Below, piece after piece: positions 2 to 6,565 of a DNA stretch of 21,322 bases (position 1 is its first letter; each line of letters starts with the position of its first letter). The notes beneath the pieces are model-generated. The model was given only the letters and a program-made list of their open reading frames with translations. It was not told the DNA's origin and made no database searches. Source of the DNA: a virus. A program made the translations under genes and the position numbers. The DNA is taken from the IMG/VR virus record IMGVR_UViG_3300027881_000102, positions 1-21,322 of that record; one strand, given 5' to 3'.

Positions 2-1858
2 ATGAGTAAAGACGTATCCATCCTCGACTTAGATCGCATCACGCAGGTACTACACCGCAGGTGTGAGTCAATGGACGTAGGTCTAACGTGGTCCAAGCAG
101 GCCACCACTGCAATGACAGATGGCAGGAACATCATACTGCCAGTGGTCAAGCAGCCTATCACTAAGGATGCAATGGATAAGCTGTATGGATTTGTGATCC
201 ATGAGTGTGGACACCACACTAGACCTGATGCATTCAAGATACTGAAGGCATTAAGTGACCCACCTCCAGAACTGTGCGCTCTGTTCAACATCTGTGAAGA
301 CGATGGTATGGAGCGTGAGGTAGCTGATGCACACATCGGTGATGCTGTAGGTCTGGGCACCATGAACACAGTGGTACTAGGTGAGGTGGCAGACGCATGG
401 AAGGAGAAGCCTATACCTGAGGATGCAACCGAGCAACAGGTAGCACCCATGTCAGTGTGTGGGCTAGGTCAACTGTCTCGCCTTGAGTGGGACGGTGTAC
501 CTAACCAGAATAGAACACGGTTCTTCGAGAACCTACCACCTATAGCTCAGAAGCTACTCAATGACCTCCACTCGGAGGGCTACGTTGACAAGATGCTAGC
601 TACCAAGGACCCACATGACACATGGGACTTAGCCGTTGACCTATACAAACGACTGTTCCCAGAGAGGGACGAAGATGAAGCAGAACAGCAGCGTTCGGAC
701 GGTCACTCGATGCAGCCAGCGCCACCATCAGAATCATCCGGCGAGGATGGACAAGTGGGTGAGGTATCTGGTATGGATGACGAGTCCGAGGACGGAGCAG
801 GATCACAATCAAAGGGTACTGTGGAAGGGGAAGAAGATAAGACTAGTGCTAAGGCTAAGAAACAACAAGGCACTGTCATTAGCTGGAAGGATGCGGTACT
901 CTCTGAGCACAATGAGTGGAAGCCTAAAAAGGACGGTGACGTAGCTGGTTCCATCGGCATAGACTGGACTGACTACAAAGCAGGCAGTGTGGTACTCATG
1001 CCACAGAAGCTAGTCAATGTCATTGACTGTCGTGGACACGACCAACAAGTACAGACAGGCAGACATGGTGATAATGAGGGTACACCTGAGTCCTTCATGC
1101 CTGACAACACAGGGTCACGTGCTTTTGGTAATCAGATCAGACGCTACCTCCAATCACAACGACGTACCAAGGTACGACGAGAGAGATACCACGGTAATCT
1201 GGACAAGTCCAGTATCGTGAGGCTAGGTATGCCACCCATTGATGGTGGTGATTGGAACAAGAAACTGTTTTACGATATGGTGCAGCGCAAGGAACTGAAC
1301 ACTGCTATCCACGTACTGACTGACTGGTCAGGCTCAATGCAAGGGACCAAGATGGTACATGCTGCTGATGCCAGTGGCAGGCTAGTGTATGTGTTCGACC
1401 GTGTACTCAGGGTGCCAGTGCAACTGGCTGCTTTCACCAATGGTAGGACACGGTGCGACATAGGTCTCATCAAGGGATTCAAGGATCGTAGCATCAGCCC
1501 TCGTCAAATAGCAGAGAACTTCTCGAAGTTCTACAAGTACAGCTCAGCTAACAACGACGCTGACTCAGTGATGTGGGCATACAACCAGCTGATACGTAGG
1601 AAAGAGGAACGTAAGATCCTCATCGTACTCAGTGATGGGGCACCAGCCGGTGCCTATGGTGGGTCAGGCTCGTCTAACCTCAAGCATGTGTGCCGCAGCA
1701 TAGAACGAGACAGTAAGGTAGAGTTGTACGGTGTGGGCATCGAGTCCAATGCAGTTGAGACATACTACAGCAACGCTAAGGTGTTGCACGACAGTGACGA
1801 GATCAACAAGACACTATTCGAAATCATTAGAGAAGGAGCATACCGTGGAACCAGATAA
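2..1858 (+). CDS. CobT-like protein with HExxH motif and VWA domain
   Basis: The 618-residue product has two recognisable parts. Near the N terminus there is a HExxH zinc-type motif (HECGH, residues 67-71), followed by an acidic NICEDDGMER stretch (about 96-105) that could supply a further ligand. The C-terminal third is a von Willebrand A domain with a MIDAS motif DWSGS (441-445) and a later LSDGAP (D545). Residues about 222-290 are acidic, Ser/Gln-rich and probably disordered. This layout resembles the CobT-type subunit of cobalt/magnesium chelatases and the VWA partners of MoxR AAA+ ATPases, which many phages encode without the rest of cobalamin synthesis. The usual ATPase partner (CobS/MoxR) is not in the window and would lie upstream. 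The ATG at base 2 leaves no room to see a ribosome site, so a start further upstream cannot be excluded. A role in remodelling a protein or metal complex is inferred; true cobaltochelatase activity is unlikely. Confidence 0.8.
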   Translation: MSKDVSILDLDRITQVLHRRCESMDVGLTWSKQATTAMTDGRNIILPVVKQPITKDAMDKLYGFVIHECGHHTRPDAFKILKALSDPPPELCALFNICEDDGMEREVADAHIGDAVGLGTMNTVVLGEVADAWKEKPIPEDATEQQVAPMSVCGLGQLSRLEWDGVPNQNRTRFFENLPPIAQKLLNDLHSEGYVDKMLATKDPHDTWDLAVDLYKRLFPERDEDEAEQQRSDGHSMQPAPPSESSGEDGQVGEVSGMDDESEDGAGSQSKGTVEGEEDKTSAKAKKQQGTVISWKDAVLSEHNEWKPKKDGDVAGSIGIDWTDYKAGSVVLMPQKLVNVIDCRGHDQQVQTGRHGDNEGTPESFMPDNTGSRAFGNQIRRYLQSQRRTKVRRERYHGNLDKSSIVRLGMPPIDGGDWNKKLFYDMVQRKELNTAIHVLTDWSGSMQGTKMVHAADASGRLVYVFDRVLRVPVQLAAFTNGRTRCDIGLIKGFKDRSISPRQIAENFSKFYKYSSANNDADSVMWAYNQLIRRKEERKILIVLSDGAPAGAYGGSGSSNLKHVCRSIERDSKVELYGVGIESNAVETYYSNAKVLHDSDEINKTLFEIIREGAYRGTR

Positions 1859-2276: not shown

Positions 2277-2558
2277 ATGACGAAGAAGAAACGCAATGCT
2301 ATCCCGATGCAAGACCTAGGGATCAGTAAGATTCCGACACCTGCTCAGGTGTTCGAGTGGTTCCAGAAGATGGGTAGATACACGAGGACAGAGCGCAATG
2401 CAGATTATGATGGTGATACCGATGGTAGTTTAGCTATCACAAAGAGTACATCAGTCGAGTTTGCTATACCCAAGCACAAGCCCATCGAACATGAGCCTGT
2501 CAAGGTGTACTCCCCGGAGGAGATAGCACAATACGAGAAGGAACGAGCAGATGATTGA
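2277..2558 (+). CDS. Hypothetical protein, 93 aa
   Basis: Unrecognised. The ATG at 2277 is preferred over an in-frame GTG at 2259 because GGAGG (2268-2272) is correctly spaced before it. The product begins with a basic cluster (MTKKKRN) and is otherwise hydrophilic and mixed in charge, with no cysteine pairs, membrane segment or known catalytic motif. Its last codons overlap the start of the primase gene by 8 bases, so it is probably co-translated with the replication proteins. A small replication accessory or host-takeover protein is possible but not supported by any motif. Confidence 0.6.
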   Translation: MTKKKRNAIPMQDLGISKIPTPAQVFEWFQKMGRYTRTERNADYDGDTDGSLAITKSTSVEFAIPKHKPIEHEPVKVYSPEEIAQYEKERADD

Positions 2559-3420
2559 CATGAAATTATGGGAGCATGAGTGTAGCATGGTCAAGCGTGG
2601 TCAGACATTACGCTTCAATCATGGCGACTGCCCCGCAGGGCAGGACACTAGGCGTAGGCTGTACCTCACCCGCCCCGCTAGCTCAGCTGGTATAGTGGTG
2701 GCGTACTGCCACAACTGCCAAGACAAAGGCATACTGACTGATGACTCTGACAAGTTCAAGGACTTCGACAAGAGGCCACTGATGAACGAACGTGTGCCAT
2801 TCAGCCAACCGTCCACCTTAGTACATGACCTAGCCAACTGGCCTACTATGGCTACTCAGTGGCGTATGAGCAAGGGACTTACTAAGGCACAGGTCAAGGC
2901 AGCACACATAGCGTATGACCCCGACACACACAGAGTATACTTACCTATCTACGATAGGGTAGATGAGAATGGTGCGCCATACACTGAGACTGAACTGACA
3001 GGGTTCCAGCTACGTAGATTAGAGGGCACTGGAGCTAAGTACCTCAATGCCTATGTGGATAACGAGGTCAAGCCTTACACTAGGTTCAACCCCAACGACA
3101 AGCTGATGTGCTTCCTAGTAGAGGACATGGCTAGTGGGCTTAGATTGGCAGATGTGTATGGTCCCAATGTAGGAGTCGTGGTCAACTACGGTATCAAGTG
3201 TACACCTGAGGTACTGTACGCCAACTCGAACATACATCGAGGCATAGTGTGGCTCGACAACGACAGTGAGCATGTGATAGATCAAGCTGCGATGATAGCT
3301 AGAACGTGGGGCTTGATCAGTGGAGTACAGTGCTACGAAGAAGAACTAGTAGCAGATCCAAAGAACTGCACGACAACGCAGATCAATGACATCCTAAAGG
3401 ATTGGAGCGGTGACTTATGA
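2551..3420 (+). CDS. DNA primase, zinc-binding and toprim domains
   Basis: This 289-residue product looks like the primase half of a T7 gp4-type primase-helicase, encoded here as a separate gene. An N-terminal zinc-binding element is suggested by H24, C27, C53 and C56 (the last two as CHNC). A toprim domain follows: the catalytic glutamate lies in LVEDMASG (E191), and the DxD metal site in WLDNDS (D236 and D238). It would make short RNA primers on the lagging strand for the helicase and polymerase encoded immediately downstream. The start at 2551 has an upstream AAGGA; a second in-frame ATG at 2560 is possible. The helicase start overlaps its stop by 4 bases, which fits stoichiometric expression of the two partners. 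Confidence 0.82.
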   Translation: MIDMKLWEHECSMVKRGQTLRFNHGDCPAGQDTRRRLYLTRPASSAGIVVAYCHNCQDKGILTDDSDKFKDFDKRPLMNERVPFSQPSTLVHDLANWPTMATQWRMSKGLTKAQVKAAHIAYDPDTHRVYLPIYDRVDENGAPYTETELTGFQLRRLEGTGAKYLNAYVDNEVKPYTRFNPNDKLMCFLVEDMASGLRLADVYGPNVGVVVNYGIKCTPEVLYANSNIHRGIVWLDNDSEHVIDQAAMIARTWGLISGVQCYEEELVADPKNCTTTQINDILKDWSGDL

Positions 3421-4685
3421 TGGAGGGCATCGACCTCGACATGCTCAAGTTCATGTCGGACAGAGACAACTACTACACCTACAAGGACGTGATCACCAAG
3501 GGCTTATGCACTAGGGAATCATGGACACTCATTGCAGACTACGGCAAGTACTTCAATGAGTACCCTACACAACAGGAGATAGACAGTGACTTCGAACTGT
3601 GGTTCAGAGTTACCGGGCATCCCGGATGGAAGCCCGACGAACACAAGATCTACGGCACGATTATTAACAACGTGCTTACGAGACAAGCACCCCAGCGTGA
3701 TGTCTTCAGGGATCAAGTGGAGCGCCTTCGGTTTGAGTCAGTACTCAAAACACAGACCGATGACTTTAAGAAAGGTGCTGCCAGTGTTGGCGATGTGCTT
3801 ACCGCACTCACAACAGCTGGGTATGATGACCCAACGAATGACAGGGATAAAATCTTTACCTTCGATCTCAACGATCTCGCTCAGCATCAGAGATCAGATG
3901 ACGGTCTCTACTGGAGACTGGAAGACCTCAATAAAAGCATCGGCCCGATCAGGAAGGGTGATGTCTGCATCGTGGGTAAGCGACCCGAGGTAGGAGGTAC
4001 GTCCTTCCTGTGCTCAGAGATGAGCTACATGATAGAGCAACTAGACAAGGATGGCAACGCTGTGTTCTTCAACAACGAGGAGGCACCTGATAAGGTAGCC
4101 ACTCGTATGGTGGGTGCTGCACTGGGTGTGGACTACCGCACCATGATGTCAGCACACAACCTGCATCAACAACAGTACCAGACGTGGCTAGACACACACA
4201 CATGGGACCTAGTACATGACACTTCAATGGACATTGGAAGCATCCATCAAACGCTGCGAGGAAAAGAGTACGGACTCATTGGAATCAACGTACTCCTCAA
4301 GGTTGGAGGAACAGGAGCTAAAGAGGACCATGACAAGTTCCAAGCTCTCGGTGAGGAACTCAGACGTATTGCACAAAGTTATGGGCCAGTACTGGCTATT
4401 GTACAAGCTGATCCGTCAGCTGAAGGTATGCAGTACATCCCACAAGACCGAATCTATAAGTCTAAGACTGCACTCCAAGGTGAAGCTGACATCCTTATCA
4501 TGATAGGTGCTGACGATCAAGGCCCAGTGGATAGCAGGTACATCCACGTGGCTAAGAATAAGATACCACCTGCACCGTGCTGTGACCTAGCAGTCAAGCA
4601 CATTAAGAGTGAGGTCGCGTTCGACCTCGGTACAGGTAGGTTCACATCAAGAAACTTCAAGGGTAACAGTAGATGTACGACATAA
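3417..4685 (+). CDS. DnaB-like replicative helicase with altered Walker motifs
   Basis: The 422-residue product has the order of a RecA-fold DnaB/gp4-type ring helicase: P-loop region (187-196), the acidic NNEE segment (219-222) common in phage homologues, a Walker B region (287-294), a QADPSAEG segment like motif H3, and a late KNK segment (HVAKNKIPP) in the arginine-finger area. It would unwind the fork ahead of the polymerase. Two expected residues are missing. The P-loop reads GKRPEVGGTS, with Gly194 where DnaB proteins have the Walker A lysine, and the Walker B strand reads LIGINVLL, with Asn291 where an aspartate is expected. K188 lies six residues earlier and might compensate. The reading frame is intact. 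Its start overlaps the primase stop by 4 bases and its end overlaps the polymerase start by 13 bases. Assignment to the family is firm; ATPase activity is uncertain. Confidence 0.78.
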   Translation: MMEGIDLDMLKFMSDRDNYYTYKDVITKGLCTRESWTLIADYGKYFNEYPTQQEIDSDFELWFRVTGHPGWKPDEHKIYGTIINNVLTRQAPQRDVFRDQVERLRFESVLKTQTDDFKKGAASVGDVLTALTTAGYDDPTNDRDKIFTFDLNDLAQHQRSDDGLYWRLEDLNKSIGPIRKGDVCIVGKRPEVGGTSFLCSEMSYMIEQLDKDGNAVFFNNEEAPDKVATRMVGAALGVDYRTMMSAHNLHQQQYQTWLDTHTWDLVHDTSMDIGSIHQTLRGKEYGLIGINVLLKVGGTGAKEDHDKFQALGEELRRIAQSYGPVLAIVQADPSAEGMQYIPQDRIYKSKTALQGEADILIMIGADDQGPVDSRYIHVAKNKIPPAPCCDLAVKHIKSEVAFDLGTGRFTSRNFKGNSRCTT

Positions 4686-6565
4686 CGATAGACCTAGAGA
4701 CTACCTGTAATGGTGGTGTCGACGGTAAGAACCCGGAGGCTCAGTACCCTAACAACAAGGTGCTGCTGTATGGTTGGACCAATGGCATTTTTATATACAC
4801 TGATCACAGAGGTGATGGCCTATACGATATGATCGAGACAGCCCATGACAGGGGAGATGTAGTCCGCATCATCGGACACAATCTCAAGTTCGATCTCAAG
4901 TACCTCATTAGGGAACGACCGGACCTACCGTGGCACAAGTTTGAGTACTACTGCACCATGTACAGTGAGTACCGACAGAGTGGACAACAGTACAGGTTCT
5001 CCTCTCTAGTAGACTCATGTGCTAGACACGGCATAGCGTTCACTAAAGGACTGGATCTAGGTGCTATCCTAGCCAGTGGGCTGAAGATGGAGGACATACC
5101 ACTCTGTGATCTGAAGCCTTACTTAGTAGACGACGTACAAGCTACCAACCAACTGTTCAATAAGCAGGTCAACCATGCTGGCTATGTGGAGTACATGCAT
5201 CAGCATGTCCTACCACTGGCACACATGGAACTACTGGGCCTGAGGATTGACAAGACAAAGACAGCCATTGCAATGAGTGGACTGGTATCCAAGGAAAAGG
5301 TCTACGATAGGGAGTTGTTCGCATGGGCCGAGGCCCGCTTAGAGTGGGACGATGGGAGACCTCTTGATGAGGGTGACATCAAGTACACAGCACCACGGTG
5401 CGTGTCCTACCTGCTCACTGGCTTCCCAACAGCAGGGTTCAAGAAGGGAACCAAGCATGTGATCAAGTTTAAGCCCGGTTGTGCCCCACTACTGAATCCG
5501 AAGCAGATCGCTGCACTGTGGCCCAGTGCTAAGCCTACGAACCTCGGGTTCCCTATGGCTAAGGGTGTGCTAGACAAGATGCCCAAAGGTAGCAAGGCCA
5601 GCATATATGTAACTGACCTGTTAGACTACCGAGCAGCTGTGAAGCTGTCGAGTACGTACTTCGGTCCCTTCCTAGAGGAGGCAGCATTGCAAGACACTAT
5701 CCATCCGAAGATGAACATGTGTCAGACAGTGACAGGCAGGCTGAGTAGCAGCAAGCCCAATGGACAGAACATGCCACCAGAGGCACGTCAGGTCTTCGTA
5801 TCAGAATTTGGTAAGTTGATGGAGATAGACTTCAAACAATTGGAGGTCGTGGCTCTCGCTCACTTGAGCAAGGACCCGCAACTACTGGCTGACATACAGA
5901 ACGGAGAGGACATACACTTCAATACAGGACGACGCGTCATGGGATGGAAGGTACCATCCGATATGACAAAGAAACAACGCACCATTGTGAAGAACGTAAA
6001 CTTCGGACTGATCTATGGTGGTGGTGCGAAGGGACTAGCTGAGACAACGGGGCAACCAGTGAAGCTGATCAAGCAACTGATCAAGGCTTTCTATGATAGG
6101 TACCCCGGTGTGTCTGACTGGCAACGGCAGTACTACACCGACATGGTGGCTCTGATGAAGACCTCTCACCTAGAGCATGGTGAGCAGGTGTACTGCTCGC
6201 TAGTACAGGATGGTACCAGTGGACGCAAGTTCTTCTTCACTGAAGGATCGAGCCCACCGTGGGTGAGGGTGAAGACAGGACGTAAGTTCTCGTTCAAGCC
6301 AACTGAAACAAAGAACTACCCAGTGCAAGGATTTGCAGGTGGGGACATAGTCATGACAGCAATGTGGGAATTGTACTACCGCATCGCTCTTATGGATCGG
6401 ACACAGATACGGATGACTGTGCACGATAGCATACTGGTAGACACAGACATGGACAAGAGTGCCCTTCGGGTACTCATGGTCGAGGTCTGTAATGAGATCG
6501 AATCTCTATTCAGTCTACCATTCAAACTGGACTTCGATATAGCATCGGGTCTTTACTGGCAGTAA
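4673..6565 (+). CDS. Family A DNA polymerase with 3'-5' exonuclease
   Basis: At 630 residues this is about the size of T7 DNA polymerase. The exonuclease motifs are Exo I DLE (D7, E9), Exo II NLKFD (D74) and Exo III YLVDD (Y150-D154), so proofreading should be active. Polymerase motif A is DFKQLE (D386, E391). Motif B, the O helix, has R436, K440, F444 and Y448. Motif C is VHDS (D585). The residue equivalent to E. coli Pol I Phe762 is phenylalanine (F444). Motif C ends in Ser rather than the usual Glu after the aspartate, and the Arg that normally follows the motif A glutamate is Val. The start ATG at 4673 has AAGGG upstream and overlaps the helicase gene by 13 bases. With primase and helicase just before it, it is clearly the replicative polymerase. 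Confidence 0.95.
   Translation: MYDITIDLETTCNGGVDGKNPEAQYPNNKVLLYGWTNGIFIYTDHRGDGLYDMIETAHDRGDVVRIIGHNLKFDLKYLIRERPDLPWHKFEYYCTMYSEYRQSGQQYRFSSLVDSCARHGIAFTKGLDLGAILASGLKMEDIPLCDLKPYLVDDVQATNQLFNKQVNHAGYVEYMHQHVLPLAHMELLGLRIDKTKTAIAMSGLVSKEKVYDRELFAWAEARLEWDDGRPLDEGDIKYTAPRCVSYLLTGFPTAGFKKGTKHVIKFKPGCAPLLNPKQIAALWPSAKPTNLGFPMAKGVLDKMPKGSKASIYVTDLLDYRAAVKLSSTYFGPFLEEAALQDTIHPKMNMCQTVTGRLSSSKPNGQNMPPEARQVFVSEFGKLMEIDFKQLEVVALAHLSKDPQLLADIQNGEDIHFNTGRRVMGWKVPSDMTKKQRTIVKNVNFGLIYGGGAKGLAETTGQPVKLIKQLIKAFYDRYPGVSDWQRQYYTDMVALMKTSHLEHGEQVYCSLVQDGTSGRKFFFTEGSSPPWVRVKTGRKFSFKPTETKNYPVQGFAGGDIVMTAMWELYYRIALMDRTQIRMTVHDSILVDTDMDKSALRVLMVEVCNEIESLFSLPFKLDFDIASGLYWQ

Follow-up and report, generated by a model that had tools for sequence, protein, structure and literature searches.

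Putative relocation of the P-loop lysine in DnaB-type replicative helicases of phages

On balance, we favour the reading that phage replicative helicases have repeatedly moved the lysine of the P-loop from position 7 to position 1, that one lineage has in addition dropped the Walker B aspartate, and that the outcome is a working ring motor with a layout undescribed for replicative helicases. The starting point is a gene in a virus record, of which a stretch of 21,322 bases (here called the window) was analysed. The product of this gene is likely to be the phage's own active replicative helicase, in which Lys188 stands in for the Walker A lysine, a function that we infer from the comparisons below.

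The helicase gene and its ATP site

The helicase reading frame is open and free of frameshifts, and it is located between a primase-like gene and a family A DNA polymerase gene, overlapping both (Table 1). The same order of primase, helicase and polymerase is found in normal relatives and in the 49.5-kb contig behind the variant L029. The Pfam profile DnaB_C (PF03796) matches residues 164-370 (E 2.8e-9; 37.2 bits vs a curated cut-off of 27), a span that covers the RecA-like domain, and the phrog_19 DnaB-like helicase profile matches with an E value of 5e-26. An AF2 model (pLDDT 88.7) predicts a complete two-domain DnaB fold, the first run with 7 sequences having been weaker (pLDDT 71.5), and the best PDB matches in Foldseek are the DnaB entries 7t22, 9dls and 4esv, with E values of about 1e-17 over both domains and TM scores of 0.5-0.65. 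Fold, profile matches and gene context make this protein a DnaB-type (SF4) helicase, but by motif definition it fails in two defining residues.

The first of these is the Walker A GK[ST] motif, which reads G-G-T in the window protein and in all relatives with Lys188 and Gly194. The second is the Walker B aspartate, which is Asn291 in the window protein and is retained in four variants with the combination Lys188-Gly194-Asp291 (K-G-D; the window protein is K-G-N). The catalytic glutamate, the sensor glutamine and the C-terminal basic finger are present as E221, Q330 and K380/K382, and these positions are retained in nearly every variant protein. Thus, the ORF translation and the alignment agree with the initial annotation, which had described GKRPEVGGTS at residues 187-196, LIGINVLL with Asn291, the lack of a frameshift and an otherwise intact family frame. 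It had also considered that the P-loop could be sited elsewhere in the protein. This possibility was rejected: alignment to solved DnaB proteins places RPEVGGTS directly onto RPSMGKTS and IN onto the Walker B ID, and no other motif is found in the P-loop region. A regex scan for an alternative GK[ST] P-loop found none in the window protein and none in 44 of the 45 variant proteins, the lone match being AIIMIGKS in L052, far downstream of the P-loop.

At the left edge of the window (2-1858), a gene for a CobT-like VWA protein is located next to the replication genes. In the relative L132, an AAA/MoxR-type CobS-like ATPase (302-1390) is encoded directly upstream of the CobT-like gene, and ICP2 also has a CobS-like/CobT-like pair.

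Table 1. Genes and ATP-site features of the helicase region, in window coordinates
Feature	Coordinates	Strand	Evidence
DnaB-type replicative helicase gene, 422 aa, variant with putatively relocated lysine	3417..4685	+	profiles, alignment, AF2 model
Primase-like gene immediately upstream, overlaps helicase start	2551..3420	+	phrog_47 DNA primase, E 3.7e-13
Family A DNA polymerase gene immediately downstream, overlaps helicase end	4673..6565	+	PF00476, E 7.7e-55
Variant Walker A/P-loop, G187-K-R-P-E-V-G-G-T-S196	3975..4004	+	ORF translation, alignment
Lys188, P-loop position 1, predicted last residue of beta1; proposed Walker A lysine substitute	3978..3980	+	invariance
Gly194, P-loop position 7, Lys in rest of family	3996..3998	+	alignment
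E221-E222 (NNEE); E221 at catalytic-glutamate position	4077..4082	+	E221 invariant in all groups
Asn291 replacing Walker B Asp, within LIGINVLL	4287..4289	+	alignment
Q330 (motif-H3/sensor Gln) and D332 (acid)	4404..4412	+	alignment
K380-N-K382, trans-acting finger position	4554..4562	+	conserved in almost every member of each group

Residue combinations, conservation and history of the swap

All aligned normal relatives have alanine or glycine at position 1 of the P-loop and lysine at position 7; in the variant proteins, position 1 is always lysine and position 7 always glycine. For residues 188/194/291, the final alignment contains the combinations A/G-K-D (62 proteins), K-G-N (40), K-G-D (4) and A-K-N (3), in addition to one fragment that stops before residue 291. 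It contains no form with two lysines and none that lacks both. The initial annotation had proposed aligning homologues at Gly194 and Asn291, and the alignment has glycine at 194 in every member with Lys188. Its suggestion that ATP is handled in another way, for example by K188, gains good support from the exclusivity of the two lysines and from their having exchanged places at least twice, but it had left the role of K188 incomplete, since this residue is invariant and occurs only alongside Gly194.

Pattern scans of IMG/VR gave a concordant picture, although such scans select on P-loop residues and their counts show which combinations occur rather than natural frequencies. Lysine at both positions (K..GKT) was found in 0 contigs, and GGT without lysine at position 1 was found in 17 contigs, none of them with a helicase. 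When lysine was required at position 1 and any residue allowed at position 7, the helicases recovered had solely glycine there, and the five other matches were unrelated frames. The normal combination of alanine or glycine at position 1 with GKT was present in at least 120 contigs. A look for cellular homologues gave four genome-contig pattern matches, all of them short unrelated frames. Among the best phage matches, beyond which several hundred weaker ones follow, the swap was not found in cultured isolates, also when the query was aimed at the P-loop; the isolates inspected, e.g., MEP401, ICP2, JG068, H4/4 and RHEph27, carry the normal motif. As judged from these alignments and scans, K188 and K194 are mutually exclusive across the family, and the lysine appears to have been relocated six residues upstream, from position 7 to position 1, rather than merely lost.

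The variant motif KRP[DE]xGGT[ST]F was matched in 51 viral contigs, which come from 44 metagenome datasets, in each case in an NNEE-type helicase; this recurrence exceeds chance. The initial annotation had named close relatives with lysine and aspartate at the two sites as counter-evidence; the opposite is found, as every one of the nearest distinct relatives (82-50% identity) carries the motif of the window protein together with its glycine and asparagine. Codons 188 (AAA/AAG) and 194 (GGC/GGT/GGG) vary synonymously while the encoded residues are fixed, and comparison with the 82%-identical relative yields a dN of 0.12 vs a dS of 0.87 (dN/dS about 0.14). The helicase gene is under purifying selection. 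The recurrence of the motif in relatives and in 51 contigs, the synonymous codon variation and the dN/dS ratio indicate that the change is real, old and selected, and an assembly or base error is so improbable as to be negligible. A sequencing error or frameshift was rejected because the relatives share the motif. The same data bear on the idea of a pseudo-helicase, a dead structural remnant that has lost nucleotide binding, which is the textbook expectation after loss of the Walker A lysine. P-loop residues of dead ATPases usually drift. The KRP[DE]xGGT segment is instead nearly invariant across proteins with 25-82% identity, and with the low dN/dS ratio this renders a dead remnant very improbable.

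Trees were computed without columns 188, 194 and 291. On these trees, asparagine at the Walker B position is explained by one change in one clade (99/92), whereas the lysine swap requires at least three changes. Two members of the Asn clade, L181 and L246, have a normal P-loop; together with L224, they combine a normal Walker A (A-RPE-x-GKT) with a Walker B asparagine (VINVLDK or AINVLDK) and thus demonstrate that asparagine can replace the aspartate in proteins that have not undergone the lysine swap. The K-G-D group is placed with the normal ICP2-like and L053/L054 helicases. A single clade for all swapped proteins is rejected (p-AU 8e-7); it had obtained p 0.038 in a previous tree that included fewer normal relatives. 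Thus, the lysine changed place at least twice, by gains or by a gain plus reversals, the precise count of moves depending on the weakly supported placement of L052 (81/20). The substitution of aspartate by asparagine appears on these trees to be one event that is separate from the swap. Two simpler scenarios were abandoned: a common origin of all three changes was rejected, with Asp to Asn being one event and the swap several, and the view that the swap always preceded the asparagine was dropped after the A-K-N members L181, L224 and L246 were found.

Each move of the lysine changes both residues together and demands at least four base changes by the genetic code, and no half-way form was seen among the proteins compared. 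The multiple moves could partly be explained by intragenic recombination, in which phages exchange a short P-loop segment, but even a segment spread in this way would still have to function in its new background.

Putative ATP handling and the question of activity

In the proposed mechanism, the phosphate-gripping lysine would be shifted from position 7 of the P-loop, now Gly194, to Lys188, and the invariant Gly194 would leave space in which the side chain of Lys188 could extend to the beta and gamma phosphates. In the AF2 model, strand beta1 comprises residues 183-188 and residue 194 is the first of the P-loop helix, so that Lys188 is predicted at the end of beta1. The amine of a normal P-loop lysine folds back over the loop and lies beside the backbone of its first residues, and a lysine that extends from position 1 can therefore plausibly reach the same spot. 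Hydrolysis would be carried out by the usual partners, namely T195, E221, Q330 and, from the adjacent subunit, the K380/K382 finger. In the window lineage, the replacement of the Walker B aspartate by asparagine would be a separate step, after which T195, water and perhaps D332 could coordinate the metal in place of an aspartate at position 291. The contact of K188 with the phosphates, ATP hydrolysis, DNA unwinding and the role of D332 are all proposed on the basis of sequence comparison and modelling.

An acidic residue at position 332 is found in 41 of the 42 readable Asn-type proteins vs 23 of the 62 normal and 0 of the 4 K-G-D members, which suggests D332 as a candidate helper for metal binding. 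The same association could also reflect an active helicase with a retuned nucleotide or metal preference or cycle speed, beyond the mere shift of an equivalent lysine, in which Asn291/D332 and K188/G194 would be two retuning parts. The single origin of the asparagine, independent of the swap, is in line with such retuning, but D332 is common in normal members too, and we regard this explanation as improbable.

Of the alternatives, a ring that binds ATP but hydrolyses it very slowly or not at all deserves the most attention, even though it is unlikely. Such a ring would assemble with nucleotide and assist primase and polymerase as their loader or clamp, with the unwinding of the DNA left to the host DnaB. 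Both the Walker A lysine and the Walker B aspartate are altered in the window lineage, and the joint loss of K194 and this aspartate is expected to kill most P-loop ATPases. Nonetheless, E221, Q330 and K380/K382, which serve hydrolysis and coupling, are kept in essentially all variants, the K-G-D members retain the aspartate, the swapped groups sit among normal relatives in the tree, and the gene occupies the helicase slot of normal phages. The suggestion in the initial annotation of a loader or structural ring that leaves the work to the host helicase is disfavoured by this retention of the catalytic glutamate, sensor glutamine, finger lysines, whole P-loop and gene slot.

Some phages do use the host DnaB, and the contigs studied here are metagenomic and possibly incomplete, so that use of the host DnaB or of a second helicase is conceivable. 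The DnaB_C profile gave one match each in 10 of 11 long contigs (37-50 kb), always the variant helicase gene, and it revealed no second DnaB-type helicase in these 11 possibly incomplete contigs. The profile can miss divergent members, since in the eleventh contig, that of L070, the K-G-D helicase is present but scores below it. The 11 contigs, all of which encode a polymerase A, likewise gave no match to the SF2 profile Helicase_C and none above the cut-off to AAA_30. The idea that these phages carry a normal helicase in addition was therefore rejected as far as DnaB_C, Helicase_C and above-cut-off AAA_30 matches are concerned. Taken with the retained catalytic residues, we continue to prefer an active helicase that employs Lys188.

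Several observations on these contigs are recorded here in their own right. Two sub-threshold AAA_30 matches (G008:C1:2766-2912 and G009:C1:24504-24743) fall in ORFs of 367 and 374 aa on contigs of K-G-N phages, and these ORFs may encode the CobS-like ATPase. The helicase ORF of L044/L008 (contig IMGVR_UViG_3300009788_000215) has an N-terminus identical to that of L004/L029, after which the frame breaks near residue 113, probably because of an indel in the assembly. In the L070 contig (G011:C1:43001-44667), the match to the family A polymerase is divided into two separate pieces with a TAA inside one of them; this break may be an intron or insertion, and it recalls ICP2 and MEP401, in which polymerase genes are annotated as split or joined.

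Related ATPases and significance

The closest described systems are the DnaB-like helicases of Zobellviridae and Autographiviridae, represented by ICP2 gp49, JG068 gp13 and MEP401 gp12 (phrog_19, PF03796). They share with the window protein the length, the two-domain fold, the primase-polymerase placement, the NNE motif, Q330 and KNK, and they can be aligned to it end to end with 22-28% identity. They differ in having alanine or glycine at position 1, lysine at position 7 and the Walker B aspartate, where the window protein has lysine, glycine and asparagine.

Terminases with a deviant Walker A resemble the window helicase in that they lack the lysine of position 7 but have one upstream. For the Mu gp28 terminase, K64 has been proposed to replace L70 (PMC7363723, citing Mitchell and Rao 2004; also PMC5445408), and the offset is six residues, the same as in the window helicase. 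The lambda gpA terminase also has an upstream lysine, as noted by the authors of the HK97 study (PMC9410871). In HK97 TerL itself, the upstream lysine K57 is essential for ATPase activity and was suggested to contact the gamma-phosphate (PMC9410871), but this enzyme has the classical lysine K60 as well, and the distance from K57 to it is three residues vs six in the window helicase. Terminases are packaging motors of another ATPase family with an RNase H-like nuclease domain, whereas the window protein has the DnaB fold, and the likeness is confined to the P-loop. Eurotiomycete Kti12 K14L is a natural, lineage-specific loss of the P-loop lysine after which the ATPase still works (PMC7363723); unlike the window helicase, this tRNA-related ATPase has no compensating lysine and a lower affinity for ATP. 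A literature search conducted mostly outside subscription journals found no report of P-loop lysine relocation in a replicative helicase.

Throughout biology, ATPase activity is diagnosed from the presence of the Walker A lysine, and replacing this lysine is the standard kill mutation. The family described here cautions against labelling proteins without a canonical Walker A lysine as dead, and its normal, swapped with Asp, swapped with Asn, and normal with Asn members constitute a natural panel for learning the role of each residue. If the proposed relocation is true, the ATP site of a ring motor that obligatorily has to work can be rewired, and more than once.
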